From contig NC_053044.1 of assembly GCF_003473485.1 (NCBI RefSeq), forward strand, positions 13,023,501 to 13,087,500: a stretch of 64,000 nt of DNA, given 5' to 3'. The position numbers and the translations under genes were made by a program. Shown here piece by piece: positions 1-62,940 of the stretch; position 1 is the first letter of the stretch; each line of letters opens with the position of its first letter. The stretch comes from Medicago truncatula (Eukaryota > Streptophyta > Magnoliopsida > Fabales > Fabaceae). The notes under the pieces were generated by a model that saw nothing but the letters and a program-made list of their open reading frames with translations, was not told the DNA's origin and searched no databases.

Positions 1-2405
1 AACTCAACAACCTTCTGCAAGCAGAGATAATAAGACCAAATTCAGTAACATCTGGATGAGGGTGGTTGAAGGCATCCACAGTAATTTTGGAATCCAATGC
101 AAAATCAACATTGTCAAACCTCATATCACTTAACCATTCCTAAGCATAATAAAGACCTAAAGCCTCACCCACATTAACAGAGTGTAGAAACGGGAGCGGA
201 ATGGATTTAGCTAGAATAAAAACTCCCTCGTCATCACGAATACACAAACCTATTCCTGTTCTGTTTAATGCATTCGAGAAGAAAGCGTCAACATTGCATT
301 TTACTCTACCTTGGTGAGGACGCTGCCAAGAAATAGGAGACATAACCTGATGTTGTTGCTGCCCCAAGACTCTTGCAGCCGAATTGGTGGTGTTTGCGGT
401 TGTGCTATGCACAGCCGAGCTGCTGCTATGTGTTGCATGTGTGGGGACGTTAGCAATCGACTAATCCTCTATGAGATGGCGAGCTCAGTCCATAACCTGC
501 GCCACAGTTTCTGTCACTCCTTGCCAAAGCCGTAAATTCCGATGCTTCAATAAGCTCAAAAGTAGAGCTGCAAACTGTTGGCTCTGGGCACATGACATCA
601 CCTACAATAAAGAAAAGATAGCAGCACCAGCACTGTTAGTATGTGTACAGGTGCGTTGCACAGCTGCTCTAAGACCGGACCGAAGCCAAACCTGCTGCAC
701 AATAAAACATTCAAAAAAGCTGTGTTGCAGATCTTCTGGAGGTCCTTCACAGATAACACATTCAGTGGGGCAGTTAACACCGTTCTCAGCCACGACACAT
801 ACGCCATATTAATTTTTTTACTTTCGGAGGTACTTTTAAACGCCAAATATTAGACCAAGATCCGGGTTGCCGGAGGTGGGAGGTATCCACCAAAACTTCA
901 ACACAAAGCCGATACACACTCTTAAACGAATACAATCCATTCCTCTCGGCTTTCCAAACCAACTTATCTTCCTCCACTTGATCAAGCAATGAAGTTTGTA
1001 AAATAGAGGCTGCTGTAGTGGTGTCAAAAACCTGAGATATGATTTCCTCATTCCAAGACTTAGAATTAGGATGAATAAGATTGTTAACCGTAAAATTCCG
1101 TAGCAGATGCACATTTGGAATGGGGATGGAAGTACCTGACCCAATACGCCACCGAGCCCCCCCTCGAACAATAAAACGCGCTTTTAAAATACTTCGCCAA
1201 ACGTAACTTGGGTTATGCCCCAAAGAAGCAGACATAAAGTTATTGTTAAGGAAATAGCGCGCCTTGAAAATCTGAGAAACCAACGAAAGAGGCTCTGATA
1301 TAAACTTCCAAGCCTGTTTGCCAAGCATAGCTAAGTTAAATGCAGTGAGGTCCTTAAAACCCATGACACCATGCGTTTTATGCATAGACAACTTCTCCCA
1401 AGATAGCCAATGAATACCCCGGCCACTCGACCCACCATGGCTCCACCAAAACGAATTCAACATCTTCTCTATGGTCGAAATAATAGAAGTGGGCAGCAAG
1501 AAATACTCATAACATACGATGGGATTGCATGCAGTACAGATTTAATCATAACCTCCCGTCCCGCTTTTGAAAGACATTTGCTACTCCATGTGTTTATTTT
1601 ATGCCACACGCGATCCTTAACATAAGCGAAAACAGATGTACGATTCCTACCAATCATCGAGGGTAAGCCTAGATACTTACCTGTGCCAAGAACAGCCTGA
1701 ACACCCATGATATTGGTTATCGCATGTTGTAGGGTGACAGAAACCTTGCGACTGTAAAAGATCTCAGACTTCGGTATACTAATAGCTTGTCCTGATGCAG
1801 CTTCATATGTGGCAAGAATGGATTGCATGACATGAGCTTGATTTTCTGTTGCTTTGAAGAAAAGAAAACCATCATCTGCGAAATGCAAGTGTGTAACCAG
1901 AGGAGCCCCTCTACACACAGAAGTGCCACATATGTCCCCCCTAGCCTCTGCACGTCTGATTAAGGAGGAAAGACCCTTGGCACAAATAATAAACAAGTAG
2001 GGAGAAAGAGGATCTCCTTGGCGCAAACCTCGACCCGAAATAATTGGCCCGACTGACTCACTGTTTACCAAGACTGAGTAATCAACATTCAACAGTTTCG
2101 ACACACAAAGTCATCCACTGAATCCATTGAGCATTGAAACCTATACGAGTCATAACTCCCTTCAAATAATCCCAATCAATACGGTCGCATGCCTTGCTAA
2201 TGTCTAGTTTAAGGGCCACACTCCCCTCAACAATTCTAGTATTTGTTCTCATGGAGTGAAGAACTTCAATGGCTACCATGACATTATCTAAAATCGACCT
2301 CCCAGGAACAAAAGCAGACTGACTATCTGAGATGCATTTCGACAGAATACCTTGCAGCCTATTAGCAAGAACCTGACTTTTTTTCATTTCTATTTTATCC
2401 CTCAA
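1..2405 (-). pseudogene. LINE-type retrotransposon, broken reverse transcriptase and RNase H
   Basis: Reading on the minus strand from 2405 leftwards, the pieces follow the order of a plant L1-like ORF2. First comes reverse transcriptase with the GRSILDN and LDISKACDRIDW blocks, then GLRQGDPLSPYLF and the FADD catalytic box. The zf-RVT connection domain (VWRSILKAR, IWRLKVPPKVKKLIWR) follows, then an RNase H-like domain (RVKCNVDAFF, GEALGLYYA) that runs off the window at position 1. The frame changes near 2090, 1480 and 790, so no intact protein is possible. The N-terminal endonuclease is absent: the element stops at about 2405, next to a MITE-like end. Reverse transcriptase identity is certain from the motifs; the clade is inferred. 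Confidence 0.9.
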
Positions 2406-2643: not shown

Positions 2644-3403
2644 TTGTGGAAGCATCGGAACCTTAAAATATGGGAAGATGTAACGGAGAATAGCGCACAG
2701 GCTGTTGACAGAGCTAGACACTTACCGGATGATTGGCAAAGAAGCAAATTTGCCGCGGCTAGATGTGTCACTGCAGGCGGGCATTCAACAGATGCATTCT
2801 GCCATGTCTGTGCAGCAGTCTGTACAGCTGCAACAGACTCAAAACAGATTTGTGCAGCAGTCTATACAGCTTCAACAGACTCAAACCAGACCTGTGCAGC
2901 AGCCGGTACATCTGCAACATTCTCAAACCGGACATGTGCAGCAGTCCCTACAGCTGCAACAGTCCCAAAGTGATCATGTGCAGCAGCCTGTACATCTGCA
3001 ACATCATCAAACCTGGCCTGCTATCCCGCAGTGGCAGTCACCTAGTACCAAGAGGTTTAAGTGCAATGTAGACGCAACTTTCTCGGACCAATTTCAGCGA
3101 ACAGGTATTGGCATCTGTGTTCGGGATGAGTTGGGGACTTTTGTGTTAGCAAAGGTGCAGCAGTTTGGTCACATTTATCCGGTAGAAATAGGTGAAGCCT
3201 TGGGACTCTATCATGCTCTCCAATTGATGACAGATATGCAATTTGATAATATCGACTTCAAGCTTGATTCCAAGATCACGAGAGATGTGTTCCATTCTCG
3301 TAAGACGGATGTCACATATTTTGGAAGTATCACTGGAGCGTGTCGAGAGTTGTTCTCCACTTCTTTCACTAACTCAAGGGTTGAGTTGTTCTCCACTGTT
3401 TAA
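2644..3403 (+). pseudogene. LINE RNase H-like fragment with Gln-rich repeat insert
   Basis: This is the C-terminal end of a LINE like the one at 1-2405, on the opposite strand. It opens with LWKHRNLKIWEDV, the typical end of the zf-RVT region, then changes frame. The second frame (2705-3403) carries five Gln-rich 14-residue repeats and an RNase H-like domain: RFKCNVDATFSD, RTGIGICVRDE, GEALGLYHAL, FKLDSKITRDVF. The domain matches the minus-strand copy closely; compare FALDSKITVDAF near position 80. The reading frame is open for 232 codons but begins inside a decayed element. Its stop codon lies a few bases inside the neighbouring truncated PPR copy. Expression is doubtful. Confidence 0.75.
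2810..3019 (+). repeat. Five 42-bp tandem repeats coding VQQ(S/P)-Q/H-LQ units
   Basis: Five head-to-tail copies of a 42-bp unit begin GTGCAGCAG and translate to 14-residue units such as VQQSVQLQQTQNRF and VQQPVHLQHSQTGH. The copies differ by several substitutions but none breaks the frame, so the array stays open across 70 codons. It sits between the zf-RVT and RNase H parts of the LINE fragment. The other LINE copies in this window have no expanded array at this place. Confidence 0.85.
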
Positions 3404-4241
3404 TCTGATTCCTAACAATAATCTTTTTATCCCACATTTCTTTATCCGCGTAAATATTCGACAAAGCAATACTGTCACCAACATAGCCAGGGTCCAAGTT
3501 GATCAACTTATCCCGAACTTCAGTGGCTAGCTTTAAATCACCATGGAGGCTACACGCCCCCAGTAAGGTTCGCCACATGACCGCATTCGGAGGCACCGAC
3601 ATCTCCATCACGAAGTCATAGGCTTCTCTCAGATGGCTGCTTCGGCATAAGAGGTCCACCATGCAGCCAAAATGAGGCTCTCTTGGTTCTATACCATAGT
3701 CTTCGGTCATACTTCGAAAATGACGTTTCCCTTCCTCGACCAACCCTGCATGGCTGCAAGCCATTAAAACTCCAATGAACGTTACATCGTTCGGGGATAC
3801 AATAAATTTCATTTCTGAGAAAAGTTGAAGAGCTTCATGAGCTTGGCCATGTACTGCATGCCCAACAATCATAGAAGTCCAAGTTGTTACATCTTTGTTT
3901 CTCGTACTATCAAACAACTTCCTTGCATTTCCAATATCACCACACTTAGCATACATATTTATAAGAGCATTATTCAAATGCAAATCAATTTTCATCCCTT
4001 GTTTACGCCGAACAAAATCATGAATCCATTCACCCATTTCGAGTCCCCCAGTATCCGCACAAGCAGAGAGAGCGGTCGTCAAAACAATTTGATCAGGCTC
4101 CACATTGTTCATCAACATCAGCCTAAACAACTCCAAACCTTTATTGGATTTATGATTTTCAACATAAGCCGAAATCAAAGACGTCCAACAAATAATATTC
4201 TTTTCGGGTATTTCATCAAACACTTGGTGTGCATCAAATAA
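3398..4241 (-). pseudogene. Truncated duplicate of the PLS/E-class PPR gene
   Basis: The segment is nearly identical to about 10610-11455, the 3' two thirds of the PPR gene at 10559-11833. It encodes PPR repeats from DAHQVFDEIPEKN onwards to IIVRNQIKQ. The 5' third is missing: at 4241 homology stops after 'gcatcaaata', and an in-frame TAA lies just upstream of the surviving part, so there is no start. At the other end homology stops at about 3398, which replaces the last residues and the native stop. Both ends are truncated, so this is a pseudogene created by segmental duplication. Beyond 4255 the next fragment again resembles sequence beside the parent (12171-12377). Confidence 0.9.
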
Positions 4242-4254
4242 ACATTGTTAAGCA

Positions 4255-4949: not shown

Positions 4950-6375
4950 CTAAACTGCATCTTTATGGATGAAACTTTGAGTTGCTTGCTTCTTTGCAGG
5001 ACGACTAACAGGAATCCCTGCATCACACATATCACCATGCACAAAAATTCTCAGAGCCAACATTTCATTCATACATAAAGAGGGTGCTAGATTAACATTT
5101 ATTTTTTGATACACTATATACCAGATGAGAGTTTCATCCCTTCCAGGATGTAAAAATCATATTTCGGTATTCGACAAAATACACGGCTAATAACAATAAT
5201 ATCATACTTTATAAGGAGCTGAAGTGAAGATGAATTTAAAATTAACATAAAAATGGATGTACTGAAAGAAAGAACAGATAGAAGTGGGAACCTGTAAGGG
5301 TGAAAAGGATATATAATGTAATGGAGAAATTACAATCTACCACCCCAAAACTTTTATCGGTAAAAGCTTTGGCACATCAAGTTAAAACCGTACATTTGAT
5401 ACCTTGTGATTAATTAAAATTTTACGTACCTTGGTTAGGTTCAACAGATTTAGCATGAGAGCGCTTCTTCTTCACATAGTTCTCTTGCAAGGGCTTAGGC
5501 TTTTGAAATGAGAACCGTGCAGAAGTAACACCATCTGTCGTGTACTCTGAATGATTCACCAAGAACCTTAAAACACAAGCACCGGGAGCAAAATGTAAGA
5601 AAGATGAAAGCCAAAATTTAATAATGAAGATGACAATGGTTCAATTAAGACAAGGTAGCTTTCAAGGTCACATTGCAGAGATAGTAAAGAAGAAGCAGAA
5701 GGAACATACTTGTTCACTTCAGGCATTGAGCGCAATTTCTTGCCTGATGGTGCTTCATAGTATCTGAAATATTAAAAAATCACAACAATGACAAAATGAT
5801 GATAATGAAAATTAGAAATTCTATGAGGGCATACTTTCCTAGACAAAATTCATAATAGTTGTATTGATACATAGGTTTTGATAAAAAGAATGACCAATAA
5901 TGGATACTTACATATCTCCAAATTGGCTGCTTCCTTCACCTCTAATTTGTAGCAGTCGCTGCCATCCATCTGGAGTCTGTGGAATTCCTGGCTTGTCAAT
6001 AGCCCAAATCATACTGTCATCCTGAGAAACATCCTCTGGATCATCACAAGAAATATCAGGTCGCCACTCCCGAGCATTTTCACAAACAAAAGGATGTTGA
6101 AGGTTATGTTCACGTATTTCTTCATATTTTTTCTCCGTTGGAGTTAACCTCCATTTAGAACAGTAATGACATTGAACAGCGAAAGCACCAACTACTGGCA
6201 AAACTCTATGAGCTGAACTCCGAGGTGGTCTACGCAGAAGGGGATCATGGGCAAGTTGATTTGTGTTGTCACTATTTGTCATAGGGTTATATTCATCATC
6301 ATCATCTGAAGAAGAAGAAGAAGAAGAGGAAGAAGAAGAAGAAGAAACGTATATGTGATCTGGAAGACGATGCAT
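4950..6375 (-). CDS. CW-type zinc finger and methyl-CpG-binding domain protein (four coding exons)
   Basis: Probable nuclear chromatin reader. Coding exons on the minus strand are 6375-5912, 5763-5710, 5566-5430 and 5017-4950; joined they give 240 codons plus a stop, with GT-AG at every junction and frame kept. Residues 11-24 are a Ser run followed by Asp/Glu. A CW zinc finger spans about residues 65-112 (C69, C72, W75, C98, C110; QCHYCSKWRL, PDISCDDPEDV). The MBD fold follows at about 124-180 (WAIDKPGIPQTPDGWQRLL, RGEGSSQFGD, YYEAPSGKKLRSMPEVNKF). This order matches the plant MBD class that includes Arabidopsis MBD1, 2, 4 and 12; CW domains bind methylated histone H3 lysine 4, and not every plant MBD binds methylated DNA. 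The start is the first ATG after a good acceptor at 6397, so the 5' leader is probably spliced. Paralogue identity is uncertain. Confidence 0.88.
6308..6348 (-). repeat. GAA/TTC microsatellite coding the Ser run of the MBD protein
   Basis: A run of GAA/GAG triplets on the plus strand encodes about 13 consecutive serines near the N terminus of the CW-MBD protein. Its purity suggests length variation by replication slippage, which would leave the frame intact. Confidence 0.8.
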
Positions 6376-6981
6376 TTGATTTTCCAAGAAATCACACCTG
6401 ATACATTCAAAAAAGGATCAAAGAAGTAATAAAGCAATAAACCTTAATATTGTTAAACATCCAACCTAATGAATATAATTAAGCAGGCAAAAGCACTTTC
6501 TTGAATAAATTCAACGCACAAAAGAATTTTTTTGTCAATATTCTTGGGACTGTATATCAATCCACTCAAGATTTTTTTTTCCTTTCTATAGTCGATCTAC
6601 TCAAGATCATTTTTTTTTATAGTCGATCCACCCAAGATCTATGCATATCTTCTTTTGTCCATATTCATTAAATAATAATAATTAGGCTTAGCCAAGGTTT
6701 TCAAATCATGAATCCGAAGAACTATTTTCTAACTCATAAATCAAATTTTATTACGAATCGTAAAAACGACATTTGAACTAAAAACAAGCAACATAAGCAA
6801 AAACTTATAAGCTGATACATCATGTTTGAATTTCAAAATAGTTCAAGATTGAAATGACAAATCAATGAGAGTAGCAATAACACAACAAATCAACAGAAAG
6901 AGGAGAAATTGGGATTGACTTCAAACAAGACAAGGGAACCATAAACATAAAATAACAGAGAAGAGACTTGGAAGCACTGAC

Positions 6982-10558: not shown

Positions 10559-11833
10559 TTAACTAACCAAACTTCCCACTTCAATTGAGCTGAAGCCATG
10601 AGCTTTAGACTGTTTAATCTGATTCCTAACAATAATCTTTTTATCCCACATTTCTTTATCCGCGTAAATATTTGACAAAGCAACACTGTCACCAACATAG
10701 CCAGGGTCCAAGTTGATCAACTTATCCCGAACTTCAGTGGCTAGCTTTAAATTACCATGGAGGCTACACGCCCCCAGTAAGGTTCGCCACATGACTGCAT
10801 TCGGAGGCACCGGCATCTCCATAATGAAGTCATATGCTTCTCTCAAATGGCCGCTTCGGCAGAAGAGGTCCACCATGCAGCCAAAATGAGGCTCTCTTGG
10901 TTCTATACCATAGTCTTCGTTCATACTTCGAAAATTTCGTTTCCCTTCCTCGACCAACCCTGCATGGCTACAAGCCATTAAAACTCCAATGAACGTTACA
11001 TCGTTTGGGGAAACAATAAAGTTCATTTCTGAGAAAAGTTGAAGAGCTTCACGTGCTTCGCCATGTACCGCATGCCCAACAATCATAGAAGTCCAAGTTG
11101 TGACATCTTTGTTTCTTGTATTATCAAACAACTTCCTTGCATTTCCAATATCACCACACTTAGCATACATATTTATAAGAGCATTATTCAAATGCAAATC
11201 AATTTTCATCCCTTGTTTACGCCGAACAAAATCATGAATCCATTCACCCATTTCGAGTCCCCCAGCATCCGCACAAGCAGAGAGAGCAGTCGTCAAAACA
11301 ATTTGATCAGGCTCCACATTGTTCATTAACATCAGCCTAAACAACTCCAAACCTTTATTGGATTTATGATTTTCAACATAAGCCGAAATCAAAGACGTCC
11401 AACAAATAATATTCTTTTCGGGTATTTCATCAAACACTTGGTGTGCATCAAATAAGTTACCACCTCCAGCATACACTTTCAAAAGGGATGTTTGGAGTTG
11501 AATTATGGATTCATATCCAAATTTTATGATCAGGGAATGCAATTGTTTTCCTAGAACATAGGAATGGTTTTTGTTAATGCAGGCTTTAAGGGTATACAAA
11601 AAAGAAAAGCTATCAATGGAGTTGAAAGTGGGTGATTTTTGTTCTAACAAGGTTTTGAAGAGTAGAACCACTGTGGTGTGGTTGTTGCATTCAAGATAAT
11701 TTTTAAGGGTTTGGTTTGGTTTTTGTAGTTTAAGGTTGTTGTTTTTGTTATTGTGAAACTGAGTTTTGGGGACATAAACAAATTTGTTCTCACTCATTTG
11801 AAGCAAAGTGTTGAACCGTTTCATGTGTTTCAT
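10559..11833 (-). CDS. Pentatricopeptide repeat protein, PLS class with E domain
   Basis: Single-exon gene of 424 codons plus a stop, intact. Plant PPR proteins of this class bind organellar RNA in mitochondria or plastids. The start is the ATG coding MKHMKRFNTLL; the open frame continues 18 codons upstream without another ATG. PLS-type repeats include KNIICWTSLISAYVENHKSN, LHLNNALINMYAKCGDIGNA, KDVTTWTSMIVGHAVHGEA and GCMVDLFCRSGHLREA. The C terminus (VMWRTLLGACSLHGNLKLA ... SSIEVG) is an E domain, and no DYW deaminase follows, as is usual for E subclass editing factors. A truncated duplicate lies at 3398-4241. The RNA target is unknown. The short N terminus offers no clear targeting peptide, so a missing upstream start cannot be excluded. 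Confidence 0.88.
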   Translation of the reverse strand: MKHMKRFNTLLQMSENKFVYVPKTQFHNNKNNNLKLQKPNQTLKNYLECNNHTTVVLLFKTLLEQKSPTFNSIDSFSFLYTLKACINKNHSYVLGKQLHSLIIKFGYESIIQLQTSLLKVYAGGGNLFDAHQVFDEIPEKNIICWTSLISAYVENHKSNKGLELFRLMLMNNVEPDQIVLTTALSACADAGGLEMGEWIHDFVRRKQGMKIDLHLNNALINMYAKCGDIGNARKLFDNTRNKDVTTWTSMIVGHAVHGEAREALQLFSEMNFIVSPNDVTFIGVLMACSHAGLVEEGKRNFRSMNEDYGIEPREPHFGCMVDLFCRSGHLREAYDFIMEMPVPPNAVMWRTLLGACSLHGNLKLATEVRDKLINLDPGYVGDSVALSNIYADKEMWDKKIIVRNQIKQSKAHGFSSIEVGSLVS

Positions 11834-12170
11834 GAATGTCACAAATTCAATTTCAGAACACTGACAAGGGTTTAGGATTGTTGACAAAGGATTCCAATAA
11901 AAATTTAGAGTTTGTGTTATTTGAATATCAAATTAATGATGTTTACAATGTATATCTCTCTTTCACTATTTTCTTTAGAGGAAATTACACATATAATATT
12001 GTAATTGACATTTATTTTTCTAAAAGATATAATATTTTTTTATTCTAGAATTCATATGTACATATGAATGAAAGACAAAAGAGTCATTTGGGTGGTAAAA
12101 ATTCTTTGAAAACAACATTCATGAACATAGGGGACACAACACATTGTTATTGTTATTGTTATGTATGACC

Positions 12171-50335: not shown

Positions 50336-51555
50336 TTTGTGGCAAGGTTGCATAAAGAAAGTTCGATTTTCCATTAGAGGTTCGCTTAATCATTGTAATT
50401 TTCTCACAAATTTCTTGAGGAAAAAGTTGATCGAACATTTCTCAGTTCCACTTGTCGTATACCGCATAATGAGAGACATCAAGTTCCATCTAGATAAGAG
50501 GAAAACTATTATGAAATAGGAAAAAGATACATGGACATACCAATTCCATACACCCCCTTATACCACCTATGACATGGCAATAAAAATTTTAAAAAATTGA
50601 TCTTTAATGACATGGTAAAAAATGATTAAAAGAAATAAGAAATAGATCAAGGTAATTAAAAAAGAAAAACAAATCAAAGTGTTTCAGATCTCTGTCTCTC
50701 TCCACGTGATTCTCCGGCGAACTGCTCTCTTTATCTCTCACTCTCCGCCATTTGCTACGACGGCGAATATCTCTCTCTCCATCATTTGCTCCGACGGCCC
50801 GTAGCTCTCTCGATCTCCTTCCTCCTTCCTCTGTACGAATCACTTTCTCCATCTCTCTTTCCGTCGCTGAATCTCTCCGTTAAAGGTGATGTTTATCTCA
50901 AATCTTGTATTTGGTGAAGGCTAAAATAATTGTTGAATTAGAAATTCATGATGAAGAAATTAATCATATTAGGGTATGATACTGAGTTGGTGAGAATTTA
51001 GGGTTAAATGAAACTTGATAGTATTTAGTTGTTTAGTTCATAATTGAGTTAAAATCTATGTTATTTGCTACTGTCTGATTGTTGCATTTTTGGATTGTTG
51101 ATGATTATCATTGTATTGTTGTTAGTACAAAATCATAAGTTCTCCCCAATTTTTATAGTTTGATTGTGGTTGTTCCTCTAAATGATATCACGTAGAGTTG
51201 GTGTCAAATTCTTAATCAAAAGAATCGTGGTCACACTTGTGTTAAAAAATGGTCAAATTGTTGGAAATTTGGAGGAAAAAAATGCGGTTACGTCTATGTT
51301 AAAATGTGGTTAAGTGCAGATAAATTTTTGTCAGTATGTCTATGATAACAAAGATAGGAAAACATTAACTTGTCACAATATTATTTCAATAACGTTCTTC
51401 AATTTTTGTGGAAAACATGTGATTATAAAATGTGTTTGTATTTTAGTTATAAGATGAATATTTTTCAAATCGTTCTTGTAACGTGTGTTGAGAATAGGTG
51501 TTTGTGTGTGTTTTAATTGTTGTTGATAAAAATTGTTTTTGTATACAACATATAA

Positions 51556-52387
51556 GGTCAACATCATGAACGAAAACAAACGAAAAAGGGATGGTGGTGT
51601 TGGTGTAAGTACAATTTAATTAATGAGACGTTTAATGTGTATGTAACTGTTTGTGTTTTATGCCATTAATGAATGAATAATGTTCATTTTTCAGCCACAG
51701 ATAAAGACTCAAATGCCCCGTACCAATAAGTAGGTAGATATTAACCGAAAATTATCTGATGCGCAAAGGAGTAGAATTATGAAAACTCTGTTCCGATATC
51801 TGGTGGAAATGAAGACCTATATAGGAATGAATGGTACTTTATTGAAGGAATTATTGCATAAATGGGATGCAAGTAGTTTAGGATTTAGAGTAGGCGTTAG
51901 GACTGTGGCATTTAAACATCTAGACCTTTGTTTGGCTCTAGGTTTGCCTATTTTAGGAGAATCTTTGCCGGAATCAATAGATAGTGATAGTCATGTTAGA
52001 ACATTGTTTGATGTGAATGAAGTTATTAATATTGATAGTGTACATTCAAAGCTGAAGATCCTTCAAGAAGAGGACAACATAGATGATTTTTGTAGAGTTT
52101 ACATCCTATTTGCCTTGTGTGTCTTATATTTTCCGAAATCACATGGTAAAATTAAAAAAGATTTCTTTAACCTTGTTGATGATTTAGACGCTCTTAGTAC
52201 CTATAATTGGGGTGTCGCTGTTTACGATGATTTATACCTGATTGTATACTTCGTAAGTCAAAATAGTCCTCATGTTCATTATTCAATGTTTATAGGTACT
52301 GTAATATATTCGGTAATATCCTTTTACAGACAGATAGCATGTGAACATACAGTGGCAAAGAGACAAAATATCCCCCTAGTAGTATAA
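51556..52387 (+). pseudogene. Left copy of the transposon-associated gene family (DUF1985-like N-terminal region)
   Basis: A first exon (MNENKRKRDGGVG, ending at a GTAAGT donor near 51603) is followed, after a TTTTCAG acceptor, by PQIKTQMPRTNK, a TAG stop, then VDINRKLSDAQRSRI. The frame continues with LLKELLHKWDASSLGFRVGV, FKHLDLCLALGLPI, DDFCRVYILFALCVLYFP and VDDLDALSTYNWGVAVYD. These blocks align with the right copy (ELVERWDDRSG, FTPLDVCFALGL, FCRLYLLLGF, LDDLNSIGRYNWGVTVYE). I know this block order from plant transposon proteins related to DUF1985, often linked to Ulp1-like proteases; no protease domain is seen here. The in-frame stop and the missing downstream exons make it non-functional. 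Confidence 0.6.
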
Positions 52388-53644
52388 AAGATTATCGTAT
52401 CCACAGAGGTTAATTAACAAGTACTAAACTAATTAAGATTAATTTATTATTTAGACGAACAAGTAGTAGAATAGTTTCGGTAACCAAGTAAAAAGTAACG
52501 ACGAAGAAGGATAAAACTGTGAAGATGTAAATCAGTAGAGAGAGGTCTAGGGTCACGGTTTCACTTGCAATTTTCGATTCCCTAATGTCTAGTTCTAATT
52601 CAATTCCTTTATTTTTATTCAATCACCAATCACTTTAGTAAAACTATTAATCTGTTTGGTCATTATAAAGCACAAAAAGGTTGAATGACTGGAAGACTAA
52701 AATTAAGGTTTGATCATGTAATAATTCTAGTCTCAATTGTCCTATAGGTCCACCAATTAACTGCAGTACGGTGATCAATTAACTGATTGTTAACATGCAA
52801 AGGTTTGATCATTCCTAATCATGTGATAAAATCAATAGAACAAATTTGATTTGAATAAAACTGAAATTCACATTAATAAACTAGAACATGATAAGGTCTC
52901 TCAACATACAAGATTCACCTAAACCCTAGAAAATAACTTAGCTATCCATAATCAAGAACACTAAAATTGAAATAAAATTCATGAAATTAGAGTAAAGAAT
53001 AACCACAAAAGATTGCAGATTTTTGCTCCAATTCCAATCTTCACTCCAAGCTCTTGTTTTTCCTTTTGTAGCGTGTGTGTTCTTCTTATCAATTTCCAAT
53101 CCTGATTTCTCTCTCTGTACAGCGTGTGTGTAATGTGTACATCAGCCGCTTGATGTAGATGATGCTCTTTTCAATTGACCGCCTTTGACTCTTCTGTTCC
53201 AACAGTGTTTGTTTTTATTTTGGGCCATCATATGATAATATCTATTGGGCCTGTAGCAATGGTTTTAATCATCCCCACTTCTCTTGTAATTAAACGTAAT
53301 AGGAGAGAGAAAGAGCATGTCTTGATGCATTTTTCACTTATATTATATTCTACAAAATAAACTAAAAATAGGTAAGTATCTAAATAATAATAATACAAAA
53401 TATAATAAATTATACCCAAAATATTAATATAAGTTATACAATTGAGTGGTTCATCAGCAGTGCTTCACCAATTTTTCCCTCTTATTTCACATCTCATACA
53501 AGCACATCAGTCAATTGCACTCTTTATCTGGTAAATTTTCCAAGAGTCCTTCCAAAGATTTACATTATTCCACATCAAACTCATGCTAATGGGTCAAGAT
53601 TCTCATGATTCCATTCAACGAGATCACGTGGTTATATATTCAAA
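52388..53644. other. Unclassified transposon-like sequence
   Basis: From about 52390 the stretch 'agattatcgtatccacagag' and onwards looks like retrotransposon-derived non-coding sequence. No LTR boundary or coding domain could be fixed. It interrupts the left gene copy downstream of its YNWG block. Confidence 0.35.
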
Positions 53645-53946
53645 GGTTAAATGTGTTTTTGGTCCATATACAATATGGAGGCTTCTAAGTTTAATTCTTA
53701 CTTAATTTTTATTGCATTTTTAGGATTTGCTAAATATATTTACATTTAATTTTAGTCCCTGCTAAAATAACGTTTGCTTAATTATCTTTAAACTCCAAAA
53801 AATTTCAATGATTTTTTTTAGACATGTTTAGGTCATTATGAAATGATGAAAAATTAAGTATAAATACATGCAAAATTTAGTACAGATTAAGTAAGGATTA
53901 AATTTAGAAACTCCTAATTTTATAGGAACCAAAACATATTTAACTC
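53645..53946. mobile_element. MITE with ~60-bp inverted ends (GGTTAAATGTGTTTTTGG)
   Basis: The left end GGTTAAATGTGTTTTTGGTC pairs with the reverse complement of the right end, GAGTTAAATATGTTTTGGTT. Both continue into 'taagtttaattcttacttaa'-like sequence. The duplication is unclear. Confidence 0.65.
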
Positions 53947-54283
53947 TAAATTCAATACGAGACAAATTAGGAAAAAAAAACACTAACATGGTATCACATT
54001 CACCAAAAATTGGTGAAGTATAGCATTAGTTTTGGTTAGCTTTTTCTAACTCACGTTTAGAATATTATACAAGACTACACAACTGAACTCTTAGCATCTA
54101 GCAAGATTCCCTAACTTACCTCAAATGTACAAATTGCACATATATCATGTGTATAAACAGTGAGAAGGAAATTAATTGAAATGATAAAGTTTGTCAAAGA
54201 TAGAAAATTATTCATCCTATGACTCAAGCTATAAGTACCATACACTTGTGCTTTAATGTGAGTTCAGTGTTCGTTTTTCTACA

Positions 54284-54559
54284 ATGGATGAAGATTGGTT
54301 TGGAATTGAATGGGAGTTTCATGCTTTCTCTAAGTTTCAAGGAACAAAGTACACTCCAGCAGAAATGGTAGAATGTAAGGGTCGAGTGTGGGCATTGGAG
54401 CGAAATATGTTTCAATATTGTCTATGCCCACAAGAACGATTCTCACTCGCAAACATGAACCAATATCGTAGAGAATGGGAATACCACATGGAAGAGTCTG
54501 CACGTCTTAGGCAATCTTTACGTCAACAAGGCCAAAGAAGACCAAAACAACGTTCATAA
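54284..54559 (+). CDS. Unrecognised open reading frame, 91 codons
   Basis: An ATG-initiated frame reads MDEDWFGIEWEFHAFSKFQG and continues KYTPAEMVECKGRVWALERN with a basic, Gln/Arg-rich end (RLRQSLRQQGQRRPKQRS). A second frame just downstream reads NIIRNENNQMQIRLNRCLNS and REVELRGIEHLRQYWIDGDL, with coiled-coil character and a stop near 54732. Together they may form one frameshifted gene inside the large Mutator-like element. Only the short VWALE string is shared with the right-hand gene copy. Function unknown. Confidence 0.35.
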   Translation: MDEDWFGIEWEFHAFSKFQGTKYTPAEMVECKGRVWALERNMFQYCLCPQERFSLANMNQYRREWEYHMEESARLRQSLRQQGQRRPKQRS

Positions 54560-55619
54560 AAATCACAAGAGACAGTAATGAGTCGCTCGAACTGGCCACT
54601 AACATCATACGCAACGAGAACAATCAGATGCAAATTCGTCTCAACAGATGTCTAAATTCAAGGGAAGTTGAATTACGTGGAATAGAGCATCTCCGTCAAT
54701 ACTGGATAGATGGTGATTTATCTGATGAGTAATAATTTATACTTATGGTTCTCAGTGTTATGACTATCTCCATCTATTGTTAGGACTATCTCCATTAAAC
54801 CACATGTATTGTACCATTTCAACTATCCATCTATATAAATGTTCTACCTTGGTTTGTTATATTTCCTCATCCATCCATTTATATCATTGTAAGTGTCGTA
54901 AATATTATAAAATATTTCTGTTGTATGAACTTGATCACTGCGCTAAAAGCCTTTCCAACCATAAATAACTTGTTTTACAATCTGCGAGTTTATCACGCCT
55001 ACAGACGGACATGTTCTAATTTATGAAACAATAGTGGTCACGCATTTGTAAATTTATGGTCATACATGCAATATATTTGGCTAGTTTATCATTCCCAGGT
55101 GTAACAAATCCTGTTTTACGCGAATCGAACACATAATCTCATTTTAACACTGCACTAAAAGCCTTTCCAACCAGAAATAAGTAGTTATACAATATGCGCG
55201 TTTATTGTGACACTCCTATTTCTATTAAAGCAATTAAACATGCGAATAATACATTTATTCAAGAAATAGAGGTTACACCATCATTTAAAATTCAAAACCA
55301 ATAAACATGTATATAAACCTCAAAATCCCAACATACGGGTAATCTCCAACATAATAAAGTCCAAGCAAAAGATAATCTAGACTGACACAACGAAGCCTAG
55401 ATCAGAGCCGACTAAACACTAAACACTGATATTGGAGAAAGCTCCCGATATCACCAAGCACAAACTCACCAAGCACTACTCTTGCACAACGTCTACCCAT
55501 CCATACAGACAGGTAGGCGGTTAAAACTTCTGGGGGTAAGTATTACATCATCATAATCAAAATAACAGTTAACATGAATAATTCGATATAAACATCATGC
55601 ATTTGATCAATAATGATAT

Positions 55620-55625
<6 letters not shown>

Positions 55626-55659
<34 letters not shown>
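55626..55659. repeat. (AT)n microsatellite
   Basis: About 17 AT repeats inside the Gypsy-type LTR. Confidence 0.95.
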
Positions 55660-55661
<2 letters not shown>

Positions 55662-56751
55662 AAACTCCAATATCTCACGTCAATAATCACCAATCACATG
55701 TGTCATGAACAAATATCAATTCACAGTTATTCATACACAATCACCAACCACATTTATCATGAACAGTTATTCAAAAGATCTCTGCTAGGCCGAAGCCCAA
55801 AACTAGACCTCAAAAGATCTCTGCTAGGCCGGAGCCCAATAATGAATAAAACATCATCTCAACACGACTATGATGCATGAACATGTATAAGGACTCGATA
55901 ATGCGACAACAATCCACAATTCTCACCTCAATATATAGGACAACACCCAATTATATTGATTATCTCCACAACATTTGCATTATCAAGAAAACATGCCCAC
56001 ACACAATTGAATCATAGCATTCACCATCACCCATCAACATGATTATCAATAATCAACAATGTCATTCAACATCAACTATCACATATAGTTTCACCAATTC
56101 AAACATTTCTTACATTCTAAGTAAGATAGCTTACACATCTCATGATAAATATCATATCCAAAACAATCATTCATTCATACAACTTCACTTACTTATATAA
56201 ACATAGTCACCACAATTCTTAGGACAATTGGTTCAATAACATTTTCGACCAAAACCATATCAAGTGGTCACCGACCAACATTGACAAATCCCAAGACAAA
56301 AGACAAGTTGAAAACCTTCAAACAATCTTAATCGACAATATAATCATGAAGTTAAGTCGCCTCCGGATCATTAACATTAACCCAAACACAACTTAAGTTC
56401 ATATGAAAAACCCCATTTCACAACCTTTCACATTCCCACCCGAAATATCACTTTCTACATGATTAAGATGTTTGACCACTCTTACAGGTATTACCTAAGT
56501 CTATATGAACTGTAGGTTCAACTTGCAAGCTTCATTATTTTACAAAAGTTATTTTCAACAAAAGTTTGGAACTCTCAAAAACTCCCAAGTTAAGACTCGC
56601 TTGAAGAAATTCAAGTTAAAGCAAGCAATCATTGTTTCAGTAGGTTTTAGGGGATTAACAATAGTTAAACATGCTTAAAGAATCATTTAAGAAAGCTCGG
56701 ATTGGCCCCCAAAGACCCGGAAAAAAAGATTAATGTGGCTGAAACTGGAGC

Positions 56752-56980
56752 TGTTCGCTTAAGCGACCACCTGGTTCGCTTAAGCGAACAAGTTACAGTA
56801 GCAAACCACGTTGTTCGCTTACTGGTCGCTCACCAGTTCGCTTAAGCGACCACATGTTCGCTTAAGCGACCACATGTTCGCTTAAGCGAACGAGTTCCAG
56901 TAGCTACAGAAAACTTCGCTTACTAGTTCGCTTACCAGAAAAAGTATGAATGTTCGTTTACCAGGTCGCTTAAGCGAACC
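56752..56980. repeat. Cluster of palindromic TTCGCTTAAGCGAA motifs
   Basis: Six full copies of CGCTTAAGCG within 230 bp, most within GTTCGCTTAAGCGA(A/C)C. Degraded half-sites ('ttcgcttac', 'gtcgctcacc') lie between them. The cluster lies inside the LTR, upstream of nothing coding. Confidence 0.9.
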
Positions 56981-58875
56981 TTCACAGGTTTGCAGAAAAT
57001 GTTACGGGTTTGGACCCCTTTTCACCCCAAATCCCCAATTTTGATCCCTCATTGCTCAAATGTGTTTCCAGAACATGTTTATAGGTCAATATGACTAAAG
57101 CAACTCACAAAGACTCAATCAAACTTGAAAACACTTTACAATTGGACCAATTCACCATTTTCATCAAAACACCAACAACATCTCATTTCTCAACAACAAA
57201 CCAAGAATTATGCAAACCCAAGCCATGAATTATCATCAACAACATGACTAAACAACAACAACAATTGATCATGAAACTTATCACAATTCACCAACAACAA
57301 TGCATAATTCACCAATTGAGCATATTTCCACATATACCCATTTTCATACACTTTGAACATGTAATTCAACTAACATAATTCAATTATTCATAACTTCATA
57401 CATCTAAACATGTCATCACAATTAGAGCACGAATTTCATCACATATGTACAATTAATCAATTCATCCAATTAAGCACTTATCATACAAATAATTGAAAAT
57501 TACAAAAGTGATTATGATGAATTCTAACCCCCTTACCTTAGTAGGTTAATCTCCCTAGCTTAGGCTTCAATTTTGCTCCTAGCTTAACCCCAATCCTTGA
57601 TTCTTCAAGTCCTCTTCTCTCTAACCCTTTTCTCCTCTTGCTCCCACTTTCTCTCTCTATTCACTCCAAAATATCTTAGTGTAATGAAAGTGTGAGGAAA
57701 TTTCTCATAAGAGTATGTTTATATAGTGTGTCTCACAATTGGGCCTAACCCTCAACTTAATGGACTTAACCCATTTCTATTCAAACCAAAAATGTTTCTA
57801 CACTCTAACTGGTAATTCACTAATAACGGTCAAGTAACGGTAAAATGTCACTAACAGTCACTAAACGGTAAAATCTTAGTTTTACTCTAGTAACTTAGGA
57901 AAATAACTATTCTCACTAATCACTAAAAGTAATTCCCACCAAAAATTATAATTTTACCGTTCTCACAAAAATGACCAAAATACCCCAAAGTCCAAAATGA
58001 CTAAAATACCCTTCCAACACGGAAACCCATGAAAATGCACCCAATGATGAATAGTCACACACAAACACATAATAAAAGTAATTAAAATAAATCTAGCTAA
58101 AAATCGGGCTGTTACATTTATCACGCCTAAAGACGGACAAGTTCTAATTTTTGAAAAAAAAGTGGTCACGCAATTGTAAAATTATGGTCATACATGCCAT
58201 ATATTTGGCTAGTTTATCTTTCACAGGTGTCACTAATTTCGTTTTACGCGAATCGAACACATGATCTCATTTGATCAGTGCACTAAAAGCTTTTCCAACC
58301 AAAAATAAGTAGTTATACAATCTGTGAGTATATCACGCCTAAAGACGGACAAGTTCTAATTTATGAAAAAATAGTGGTCGCACATTTGTAAAATTATGGT
58401 CATACATGCCATATATTTGGCTAGTTTATCATTCCCAGGTGTAACTTATCCTGTTTTACGCGAATCGAACACATAATCTCATTTGATCACTGCACTAAAA
58501 GCCTTTTCAAACTTAAGTTTGGTAAGATTTCACCAAATCCTGTCAAAGATGGATATTAGTCGCCCTTTGACTCATGCAAAAGATATACATGCCAAGATTT
58601 TACATGTCAATAAAGACACAAACATTTTTTATATCAAAGAACAAAACATAACAAAAAACTCCCAATAAAATTTATTACATAACAGACACAGTGACTCATT
58701 AAACTGTAGGATAGTTCAACAATGTTAGTAACTAACAACATATGGTGTTTCCATTAATATTATAGGTGCGACATTGTCCTACTAAATAAAAAATAGCATC
58801 AAAAAACATCTACTTGCAATCATATCAAAACACTACACTAATTTAAATCTTCTTCTTTATGCGTCCATCCTTCAC

Positions 58876-60930
58876 CTATGGGGAAAGCAGAACCCCACTT
58901 TTTACACGGTTTCTTGGCTTGTCCTTAATTCTAGTTAAGAGATTTGATGCATGATGTGCTTCATCATATGATACATTTGCCACCTCCCTTTCAATAACTC
59001 TTTCAATCTCATCCATGGAGACGTCCTCGTCAACACTTTCATCATTGAAGACACCTTCGTCCACATAACTGGATTGTGCACTACCGCATAACTTCTTCAT
59101 CTCTCTAGTTTCCGATTCAAGAAGAGATATCCTTGCGGCAAGTCGTTTGTTTGCTTCACCCAACAGGCGATTGTTAACAATTAACTGACTAATAATAAGA
59201 TCTGGTCTCCATTTAATATATCCACTTGGCGCTCGATCTAACGCCTCCCTCACAACTTCATTTGCAACCTCTTCTTTAGTTGCACTTAGCTCTTCAATAA
59301 CCTGTTAAGGTTGATACAATATAAATATTAATGAACAATTGACACCGCTTAAACCCTATATACAAAATTCATATAGTTACATATAAATAATAATATTTAT
59401 CAACCTTACCAAATAATTACCAAGCAAGTGTGATATATTTTTGCCAACCAAACTAACACCACGCGCCTTCATAAATCGTGGAAACGTCAATGGAGAATCA
59501 TGATAACTTCGTTCGTATCCTAGTACATGCTCTAGAGCCCATACCTATATATACATATATAATATGACTATTATAATTTAATAAAAATAAATAAATTAAA
59601 TTAAATTGTTGCCATAAAATGACATGAAGACAAAGAGTGGCCTACAAAACAAACACTCTTTCATCTCCTATAAAACTTCATCCTATGTCATATAGAGTTA
59701 TAAGTTGATATACTCAAATTCAACGACAATCATCTGTATTTAAAAGTGCTTACAAATTATTACTACATTTTAATATGAGTTACACTTGTTTCAGTCACAG
59801 TTGCTAACAAGCTCTAAATATCAATGAATAAAAGATAAATTATAATCATGTCACAATATGGCATGAAGACAAAAAGTAAACATCAAATTAAAGTTAAACT
59901 TCACAATTTTTTATGTAACCCAACATAACTTGAAATCAATACTCAAGGTCACAATCATAATACAATATCAAGTAGATGCAAAACTTTTATAGATAAATGA
60001 CGCAACAAGTATATAGCTGAATTAGTAACAACCAACATACAATTCATAACAATTTCTTTTCATTCAGAAAACAACAATCAAGCCCACAACTATTAATTTA
60101 ATATTCAATCGCAATTCGCACCATCATAAAATAAGCTTAAACATCAAGTCAAGAAATCATGAAGAAAAAGAAGCAACATTATGAGGATATATCAACCTTA
60201 GAATCCAAAAACTCAAACTCAAGAAACTCTTGTAATATATAATATGTTACATTTCATTCTTGACATATATATTATACTCTTCACAGAAGACATATATGAT
60301 GACAAAGAGTGGCCTATAAACGTATAAAATGATCATACAATAACATACCTGTAATACAAAGAGGCGCTACTCGATTTAAACTGCAAGCAAGAGTTTCATA
60401 AACAGTGACACCCCAGTTGTATCTCCCAATGGAGTTCAAGTCGTCTAACATTTTTAGGCACCAACCACTAACCTTAACACTTGAATTTGGAAAGTAGAAC
60501 TCGGAAAACCAAGAAGTAAATAAAGTCGGCAAAACTTCTCAACATCTTCGTCTCCTTCCATATTAATAATTTTAGCATAAATTATTTTTACATTGATGAC
60601 TTCATTATAAAACATTGCTTTTGTAGTGGAGGTAGGGTCTTTTTTGAAGTTCACCTTTTCACGTATTATATGAAGTCCTAATGCAAAACATACATCTAAA
60701 GGTGTAAACCGTATTATCCGACCTTGTATAGCAAACCCCCACTCCTATCATCCCATCTTTCTACCAATTCTTCAAGAAAATTTTCGGATATTTTTAATTT
60801 CTTAGGCAAACTCAATAACCATTTAAATGGTGTTTTCTGAATTTGAAACCTTTGAAGTTCAGTAAGCTTGTCGTTGACTTTAGTAATATACTTCGACTTA
60901 CATTCATGCCTGAGACGTAACTGTAATAAA
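58876..60930 (-). pseudogene. Right copy of the transposon-associated gene family
   Basis: Minus-strand exons begin near 60923 (LRLRHECKSKYITKVNDKLT, KTPFKWLLSLPKKLKISENF, ELVERWDDRSG). The frame shifts near 60725 before RIIRFTPLDVCFALGL and again near 60510 between FCRLYLLLGF and SEFYFPNSS. It continues LDDLNSIGRYNWGVTVYETL to a GTATGT donor. Two intact exons follow: 59544-59410 (VWALEHVLGYERSYHDSPLT) and 59301-58876 (VIEELSATKEEVANEVVREA, a coiled coil RLLGEANKRLAARISLLESE, an acidic stretch, stop at 58876-58878). It is homologous to the left copy but inverted. Two frameshifts rule out a full protein, while the C-terminal exons remain clean. Confidence 0.65.
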
Positions 60931-61288
60931 CAAGAATTCCAAAGGCGACATATAAGGAAAGACATTAACAAAAACACAAAACACTAATGAAATCAAACAA
61001 ACTAATTGACATTCATCACATACACATACCATTTTGTTGGCTAGACAATGCTAGAATTACCACGGGAACAGATGCAATTATTATTAGTGGTTGAGAAGAC
61101 TACAACAGATGCGATTGTTATTGTCAATCAAGTGAATTGTTACTGTAAAAATAAAATAAAAAATATAAAGGCGTGTCATCTTCATAACTTAATTCACAAC
61201 TTAGATAATTTAGTTTATCGTCAAATGCAATCTTAAAATTATCTAGTTTACTGTCAAATGCAATCTTGAATAATTTAGTTCACATCCA

Positions 61289-61892
61289 TTACTATTATGT
61301 CTAGCTTTTATCTGAATAAACGACCATGTAATTTTGTCTATGAATATTAAGAATTGACTTATGAATATCAATGAATGACTTGCTTCAAATGTCTTTGAAA
61401 ATTGAATTGTTGAATTTGAGATTCAGATTTTATTAAATTGGATTCAACTAGTTCGATATTTACTTAATGATGAATATGATAAAAAATAGTTTCAAGGAAA
61501 AAAAAATTACTCTCGTGCATTACATCAGAAACAACCAAACAAGAGAACCAAATCAAAATACTCATCACCAACTCAAAAATAATCGAGTTTGAAAGTAGGT
61601 AAAATAACAAACCAAAACGTCACAATATAAAGACATAATAAGAAGCCAACAAAACAGGACAAGAATTGCCTGGAGTCATCATTTCCTACATTCAGCAAGT
61701 AAGCAGAATCATCATTAAGTAAATATCAAACCAGTTGAATCCAATTTAAAAAATGTGAATCTCAATTTCAACAATTCAATTTTCATAGACAATTGAAGCA
61801 AGTCATGCATTGATATTCATAAGTCAATTCTTAATATTCATAAAAAAATTACATGGTCATTCATTCAGATAAAAGCTAGACATAATAGTAAT
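61289..61892. repeat. Long inverted repeat (185-bp arms, 235-bp spacer)
   Basis: The left arm 61289-61473 pairs with the right arm 61709-61892 in reverse complement, with around 90 percent identity by eye; both hold 'gaatattaagaattgactta' and 'ctagcttttatctgaat'. Transcription would give a long hairpin. It lies upstream of the right gene copy, in its leader intron or promoter. Confidence 0.85.
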
Positions 61893-62409
61893 TTGCCTAA
61901 GTATTATAATTTAGAATCTAGTAATTCTCCTGCGATCTTGGTTCACTCCGTGAAAACGGTATCTGTGGCTGCCGTGACCGTTTTGTAACGGCGAAATCGC
62001 ACTACAGGACCGTTTTTTAAAACCTTTTTTGTTAATAACTATGTCTGCTACTATATAATATATGTTTGTTATTTTTGCTTTTCATACACCAAATTGTTTT
62101 AAAAAATCAATTTCTAACATACAGTTTTCTTTAATAATTGAACTCTATGAATTTACCAAGAGACTAAACCAAGCTTCAAAGACTGTCAACAAACTTTATC
62201 ACTCAATAAAACATTGAAAGAAATAGTTAAATCTGTTTCAAAGAAATGCTTACATAAATTAGATTTCAGCGAGGAGCAAAGAACATTAGATTACCCAAGA
62301 TCTCAGTCAAGACCTTACATAAATCACAAAATGTAACAGCCAAGAGGAAGAGGAATATGGAAGAAAATACCTGAGTTGAAAAAGGAACACTGTGAAAGAG
62401 ATCGTCGGA

Positions 62410-62495
62410 GATGGAGCAGGAGACGGCGGCTAGCGGCTAGGGTTGAATGGAAGATGGAGCAGGAGACGGCGACGCGCGGCTAGGGTTGAACGGAA
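62410..62495 (-). repeat. 43-bp direct duplication in the leader of the right gene copy
   Basis: 'gatggagcaggagacggcg' followed by 'ctagggttgaa(t/c)gg' occurs twice, 43 bp apart, in GC-rich sequence near the right end of the large element. The left end has a comparable GC-rich leader (50700-50880) with its own internal duplication ('catttgct(a/c)cgacggc'). Confidence 0.8.
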
Positions 62496-62940
62496 TGAAG
62501 GGTGTGGCGGAATGAATGGTGGTGGCGGAATGAAGGGGGGAATGGATGGAACTAGGGTGAAAGAGAAATGTTCCACCGAATGAATTGAAATGATAAAGGG
62601 TACGGCTAAAATTTTATTTTTTTTGTCATCTTTGATTTTTTTTGTGACATGAAATTGATTGATTTTTTTATTATTAATTGTATTGCCACATAAGGGTGGT
62701 ATAAGGTGTATTGCCACCTATGGTGGTATACCTATCACTCTTCTATGAAATAAATTTAGCAAGGATCCATATCCCCCTTCGTCATTATGACAACAATTTT
62801 GTTTTCATGTATGATATGTATTTTGTTATGATCAGTTGTAGAGCCTCATATAAAATCTTTGCATACTTTTTCCGTCGTGTGCGACATAAAGTGACGCTAT
62901 TATTCTACTTGGTTAAATTACATAACCAAGATTACTAGTG

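Follow-up and report, generated by a model that had tools for sequence, protein, structure and literature searches.

A mobile Mutator-type unit of Medicago truncatula with two convergent PMD-family genes in mirrored arms

Transposons of the Mutator superfamily generate a target-site duplication (TSD) of about 9 bp, and the maize element MuDR carries two mutually unrelated genes that converge from its two termini, one of them, mudrA, coding for the transposase. Here we describe an element located at positions 50519-62743 of a stretch of 64,000 nucleotides of the Medicago truncatula genome (C3:13023501-13087500; hereafter the window, by whose numbering all positions without a contig prefix are given). 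The element is laid out as end, leader, gene (A) and 212-bp repeat, followed by repeat, gene (B), leader and end. As in MuDR, genes converge from the termini; here, unlike in MuDR, both are paralogs of the plant mobile domain (PMD; PF10536) family. It is a single unit, it is mobile, both of its genes are common to several copies, and its two halves mirror each other.

Several described Mutator-like elements (MULEs) resemble this unit in part. The VANC proteins of Arabidopsis VANDAL elements are described as carrying DUF1985 and DUF287, VANC21 as binding a 9-base motif, and their targets as being often tandem repeats (PMC5735166); VANC is also reported to bind non-coding regions, and VANDALs to have degenerate terminal inverted repeats (TIRs) (PMC10398659). 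The M. truncatula unit similarly contains non-coding tandem repeats with a short motif (the 212-bp array and a core sequence recurring in the leader), which by analogy may be protein-binding sites, but it differs from VANDALs in that neither a VANA transposase nor VANB was found, in carrying two PMD paralogs instead of one VANC, and in its mirror-built body. Because neither a transposase nor a DUF1985 match above the cut-off was found when both were sought, the unit was not filed as a VANDAL. In the account of Ikeda et al., PMD is carried by Gypsy elements, was captured twice by MULEs and was fused to their transposase, and the captured domain is speculated to serve anti-silencing (PMC5418596). 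Those MULEs with captured PMD-C, from grasses and Amborella, share with our unit the presence of PMD on a Mutator-type element, whereas their PMD is described as part of a transposase fusion (PMC5418596); in our unit it stands as a gene by itself, in two versions, and no transposase was found. Abermu, from barley and other plants, is described as a MULE with an additional gene in the opposite orientation (ORFR) under looser but purifying selection; it differs in having a transposase, and the abstract and ORFR sections of that account name no PMD (PMC9168764). KAONASHI and KIU MULEs with Ulp1 likewise carry an accessory gene, KIU being described as VANC with Ulp1 (PMC13317346), whereas no Ulp1 (C48) match was obtained in the open reading frames (ORFs) scanned here. 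MULEs with multiple long TIRs are described as having rearranged termini while being still mobile and mostly non-autonomous (PMC3310237); according to the same description they add tandem or solo TIRs, whereas here a whole arm was mirrored together with its gene. Mutator-type elements with PMD have been described before; no account of a Mutator-type unit with two separate PMD genes, without a transposase and with a mirrored body was found among the open-licence papers that the literature searches listed.

A preliminary description of the window had proposed a 12.2-kb Mutator-like unit with a perfect 9-bp duplication, related inverted ends and a GC-rich leader inside each end, and these features were all recovered. 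The duplication, TATGAAATA, lies directly outside the left end (50510-50518) and directly outside the right end (62744-62752), the unit beginning directly after its left copy. Random 9-mer pairs from the window were identical in 9 of 200,000 trials, and when 3,000 pairs of 30-bp stretches were drawn at random, 9 of them had a 9-mer in common. End alignments identified both termini as degenerate TIRs: the left one (50519-50650, plus strand) reads GGAAAAAGATACATGGACATACC, and the right one (62601-62743, minus strand) reads inward as GAAGAGTGATAGGTATACC, and as GAGCAGTGATAGG in most sister copies. Local alignment of the two ends gave scores of 41, 79 and 114 under three scorings, and 2,000 stretches drawn at random from the window all scored lower against either end; since the best random scores were 39, 67 and 111, the margin was narrow in the first and third scorings. 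The guanine-plus-cytosine (GC) content was 0.512 at 50690-50890 and 0.547 at 62390-62590, against 0.344 for the whole window. These leaders, which are also the 5' regions of the genes, cover 50660-51560 (gene A, plus strand) and 61877-62600 (gene B, minus strand) and are present in sister copies as well. The 12.2-kb region is one mobile unit as proposed, except that part of its length was added by later insertion.

The genome searched for further copies comprised 429.9 Mb in 42 contigs. A 28-base pattern taken from the right end occurred 13 times when up to three mismatches were allowed, and the reversed pattern, used as a control, did not occur; 12 regions of 9.9 kb were then compared. With the two ends as queries, 38 matches of the left type and 27 of the right type were obtained, many of them partial, and ends were paired by position within these two lists, both of which are lower bounds. 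Both termini were found in ten units including the window copy, and nine of these ten had adjoining matched flanks of 8-9 bp, so that the search suggested in the preliminary description did yield other copies with duplications of their own. The duplications measured 9 bp in four units (the window copy, TATGAAATA; L010, AATACAGAA; L011, TACATTCTG; L055, ATTTTTTAT) and 8 bp in five (L013, CTCCAAAA; L015, AAAAATAA; L016, GATATAAT; L019/L022, TATGTATT; L052, TTTAATTA). The same description had raised the possibility that each end always pairs with a different partner; instead, pairing was left-right in nine of the ten units and left-left in one (L052). Two loci were not given two-ended status, L018 (a right end whose left arm is a leader piece only) and L056 (whose left match is leader only). 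Ends unpaired in the lists were not counted, on the left L025/L053, L027/L038, L028/L035, L029/L054, L030, L031, L042, L043 and L048, and on the right L012, L014, L017, L020, L057 and C7:28596845; weaker partial end matches were treated likewise. Five copies (L010, L011, L013, L015 and L016), 6,509 to 6,907 bp long and each with its own 8-9-bp flank matches, keep the order of the window copy, namely right end, gene B, 212-bp array, gene A and left end. In all five, gene A is internally deleted, with most of it gone, and the PMD exon of gene B is cut short at its end. Gene B has no synonymous differences within this group, which indicates that the subgroup spread recently. A unit on C4 spans about 43 kb, of which all but about 31 kb was read, and contains Gypsy-like frames. 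These two-ended copies with their own TSDs refute the idea that two unrelated gene fragments merely lie between an accidental 9-bp repeat; although a 9-bp match by itself is weak evidence, this explanation retains a negligible probability.

The unit was assigned to the Mutator type on the basis of its TSDs of 8-9 bp, found in nine of the ten two-ended units, and of its TIRs, which are near-perfect in L052. Pfam-type domain scans were run with curated cut-offs on a subset of 26 ORFs, three of them outside the unit, and no match to PF10551 (MULE transposase) was obtained in these 26 (further ORFs exist). A single 300-aa MULE query detected nothing in 49 loci and the window, a search that could miss a distant transposase; of the 43-kb C4 copy, all but about 31 kb was read. 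The earlier statement that no transposase is visible agrees with both results and, because no transposase match was found, we call the unit Mutator-type and non-autonomous. Two MULE transposase matches do lie in the neighbourhood of such ends, one about 12 kb inside a left-type end (C2:44135186) and the other about 15 kb inside a right-type end (C7:28581453); with 150 of 923 candidates in 430 Mb scored, chance alone is expected to produce neighbours of this sort. Mobilization in trans is proposed as a very probable property of the unit. Weighing against the superfamily assignment, it draws on termini and TSDs, as no transposase bounded by these termini was detected, and five of the nine TSDs are of 8 bp. 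The tenth two-ended unit, the C6 copy, had no clean TSD. The 8-bp duplications would suit another TIR superfamily, such as hAT. Set against this are the four perfect 9-bp repeats, the G with which both termini start, and an inverted similarity that is about 100 columns long and in large part AT-rich, in place of the 10-15 bp typical of hAT elements, and membership of such a superfamily is very improbable.

Both genes of the unit are recognizable by their PMD exon. Gene A (plus strand) has a short first exon at 51566-51604, read by eye (MNENKRKRDGGVG, then GTAAGT), and a PMD exon at 51695-52234, with a match to PF10536 in ORF 51734-52387 (E 2e-10; 40.8 bits, cut-off 34.9) and one in-frame TAG near the start of this second exon. 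Gene B (minus strand) comprises a PMD exon at 60349-60983, with two frameshifting gaps relative to the open C6 copy, a middle exon at 59409-59547 (VWALEHVLGYERSYHDSPLTFPRFMKARG; splice sites by eye) and a last exon at 58876-59304, coiled-coil-like by eye, in which comparison with L010 shows one stop close to the end. Three pieces of the PMD exon of gene B in the window were compared with PF10536, one of which scored below the cut-off (15.8) and two gave no match. The PMD exons of A and B are both open in the C6 copy, in ORFs of 226 and 230 aa, and their PF10536 scores exceed the cut-off of 34.9 (A, 50.1 bits; B, 38.6 bits). The preliminary description had assigned the two inward-reading genes to one family, which was borne out: A and B of the window are homologous (tblastn E 7e-14), with little likeness at the DNA level, and between their open C6 versions the identity is 35% over 218 aa (E 8e-53). 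The last exon of A in C6 is also homologous to the last exon of B in L010 (E 5e-6). The domains named for checking in that description, DUF1985 and Ulp1, did not fare as well; PMD was the domain above the cut-off, the left ORF of the window matched DUF1985 below the cut-off only, no Ulp1 (Peptidase C48) match was obtained among the ORFs scanned, and a DUF1985 plus Ulp1 identity was rejected. Structure prediction of the gene A domain of the window reached a mean predicted local distance difference test score of 52, and a PDB sequence search returned 0 matches.

Selection on the two genes was estimated from pairwise Nei-Gojobori ratios of nonsynonymous to synonymous change (dN/dS), with few differences per pair. 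For gene A, the window and C6 copies differ at 8 of 110 synonymous and 6 of 424 nonsynonymous sites (dN/dS 0.19, Fisher p 0.0026), and C6 and one L052 arm gave a dN/dS of 0.09 (p 0.0003). These values indicate that gene A evolved under constraint between the window and C6 copies.

The mirror layout was examined through the 212-bp array, which repeat analysis located in two parts at 54931-55205 and 58117-58512 (both plus strand). In L010, an opposite-strand tblastx self-comparison matched gene A to gene B and the A-side array to the B-side array (E about 1e-44), from which it follows that each arm consists of terminus, leader, gene and array. Inverted arrays are also present in L057 and L055, the latter with inverted repeats near both ends too; in the window copy, no A-side array was seen. 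A tree of A, B and nine other PMD loci of this genome, a sample of the 129 matches listed, placed A and B in one clade with support 1.000. With regard to a Pack-MULE origin, in which part of a host gene is captured, none of the nine sampled loci is close to A or B (25-32% identity where matched). On C8, L052 forms a 5-kb palindrome in which two left arms face each other; its self-complementarity is 94% over 5,081 bp and its 8-bp duplication flanks it, and therefore inverted duplications of this kind do occur in this genome. The preliminary description had interpreted the pairing as two ends or nested copies of a gene-carrying element fused into a composite. A head-to-head fusion of two different PMD-carrying elements would fit the mere 35% identity of A and B and the little nucleotide identity shared by the end regions. 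Nevertheless, the features of one arm, array included, return in mirrored order in the other, A and B fall together among the sampled PMDs, and L052 is a younger case of a left arm duplicated in inverted orientation. A recent fusion was consequently not upheld, and a fusion of different elements is improbable; the body of the unit is probably an ancient inverted duplication of one arm. As a separate observation on L052 (81-5105; C8:2374900-2380100), its transcript could fold into a long hairpin, comparable to the mechanism proposed for Mu killer and MuDR (PMC3440606).

The core repeat of the array, GTGGTYACG - 13 bp - ATGGTYAT, recurs outside it. Two copies lie in the gene A leader (51227-51314, plus strand) with scores of 15 and 14 of 17, whereas 50.3 kb of window used as background contained no match at 15 of 17 or above and two at 14 or above; none of 200 mononucleotide shuffles of the leader equalled the observed count. 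The gene A leaders of the window, C6, L010 and L015 copies each contain the core twice, and L055 has it in both end regions in mirror orientation. This pattern of array and leader core, together with the VANDAL/VANC parallels and the speculation of Ikeda et al., leads us to favour a VANC-like anti-silencing role of A and B, which by analogy may be entertained as a tentative proposal. The probability given to it was lowered because no copy was read with both genes complete and because L055 has the repeats and no recognizable PMD. The retention of the array in L055 would suit a different interpretation, in which the targets of the unit's PMD proteins are host genes or host MAIN/MAIL complexes and the array is only a by-product of tandem expansion; the host PMD proteins MAIL1 and MAIN are described as acting in silencing independently of DNA methylation (PMC5418596). 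The presence of the core in both the array and the gene A leader of one unit, and its rarity in the background, argue against a host target, which we regard as less probable even than the fusion of different elements.

Taken together, these data can be accommodated in the following model. The window copy would be an old, decayed Mutator-type unit that does not encode a transposase itself. Its family would have arisen when a single arm, made up of terminus, GC-rich leader, PMD gene and 212-bp array, was duplicated in inverted orientation, which gave the two convergent paralogs A and B. Their proteins, with a PMD/DUF1985-like domain and a coiled-coil-like tail, would act as VANC-like anti-silencing proteins, recognizing the core in array and leaders and keeping the unit open, and a MULE transposase supplied elsewhere would move the opened unit. 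As a whole, with the function of A and B as its conjectural part, this statement falls just short of an even chance. Several observations weigh against it. The gene B leaders of the window, C6, L010, L015 and L057 contained no correctly spaced core match at 14 or above, and in L055, which has termini, array and core, a search at E 0.01 detected neither the PMD of A nor that of B. DUF1985, one of the named VANC domains, scored 21.1 and 20.5 bits in the C6 genes, below its cut-off of 35.1, and the domain scan of these genes gave no match to DUF287. The window copy is broken in both A (one stop) and B (two frameshifts and a late stop), C6 is without most of the last exon of gene B, and, as said, no copy read has both genes complete. 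Constraint on gene B was weak (window-C6 dN/dS 0.38, p 0.064), and ratios above 1 were obtained for its PMD exon (L017-L019, 2.07; C6-L019, 1.18) and its last exon (window-L054, 1.97; L017-L054, 1.65; window-L019, 1.11), as well as for gene A when the two L052 arms were compared with each other (1.21).

Within the L010-L016 group, the differences in gene B are few and all nonsynonymous, and this also favours another interpretation, in which the unit would be a MuDR-like two-gene element that has lost its transposase, with convergent genes reading in from the termini, a shared intergenic region, and PMD genes that are passengers with no anti-silencing role. Besides the convergent genes, one reading in from each end, the amplification of L010-L016 despite a deleted gene A and a shortened PMD exon in B supports it by indicating that intact genes are unneeded in cis. 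Against it, the MuDR genes are mutually unrelated, whereas A and B are paralogous and sit in mirrored arms that have the array in common, and gene A was under constraint between the window and C6 copies. We consider the passenger interpretation unlikely, though a more serious candidate than either the fusion or the host target. The mirror-built unit moved in trans can be extended to a more specific formulation, of a transposase-free Mutator-type parasite whose recognizable coding capacity is a diverged PMD anti-silencing pair of ancient palindromic origin, with a target array in each arm, and which would represent an anti-silencing system, based on a new protein class, outside the VANDALs of Arabidopsis and capable of being uncoupled from the transposase served; this formulation is doubtful, on a par with the passenger interpretation.

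The length of the window copy reflects several later changes. The 212-bp array is interrupted at 55206-58116 by a later insertion matched in no sister locus compared, a putative solo long terminal repeat (LTR) of 2.9 kb (TGTGACA...TGTTACA) flanked by the 5-bp duplication TTTAT (55201-55205 and 58117-58121). A cluster of GTTCGCTTAAGCGA repeats lies within it at 56752-56977. The stretch 52235-53490 was also matched in no sister locus compared, and was either inserted here later or lost elsewhere. A foldback addition of 408 bp (61469-61876, with inverted arms) includes an inverted copy of the adjoining 61288-61478; it is absent in L009, L010, L011, L013, L015, L016, L017 and L019 and present in L057, and for this last reason its candidacy as an insertion private to the window was rejected. 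Without 55206-58116, 52235-53490 and the 408-bp foldback, the unit measures about 7.6 kb. An insertion resembling a miniature inverted-repeat transposable element (53646-53955, edges by eye; inverted arms at 53683-53720 and 53872-53909) was likewise rejected as private to the window, being also found inside the C6 copy. Between the two PMD genes, a pair of small ORFs designated gene C (54257-54732, plus strand; MDEDWFGIEWEFHAFSKFQG) is also present in the C6 copy, L054 (3157-3603) and L009 (4004-4282), and gave no Pfam match above the cut-off.

Outside the unit, the window contains at 3369-4247 (minus strand) a frame that is a truncated near-repeat of a longer protein, PPR-like by eye, about 7 kb away (10559-11932, minus strand). 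Frames at 786-2110 (minus strand) resemble a remnant of a non-LTR retrotransposon reverse transcriptase, with one weak zf-RVT match below the cut-off, and an ORF at 5908-6417 (minus strand) encodes a CW-type zinc finger above the cut-off (PF07496, 37.6 bits). Elsewhere on C3 (23032041-23266833), a cluster of PMD genes was observed, many of them open and with a near full-length PF10536 profile.

PMD proteins take part in host silencing (MAIN/MAIL1) and also occur in transposons, and the unit offers a compact case for the role of the transposon versions. If A or B binds and opens the array, PMD would join DUF1985/VANC as a class of transposon anti-silencing proteins. The mirror body, for its part, shows how a convergent two-gene element could arise through palindromic duplication, a young palindrome, L052, being present in the same genome.

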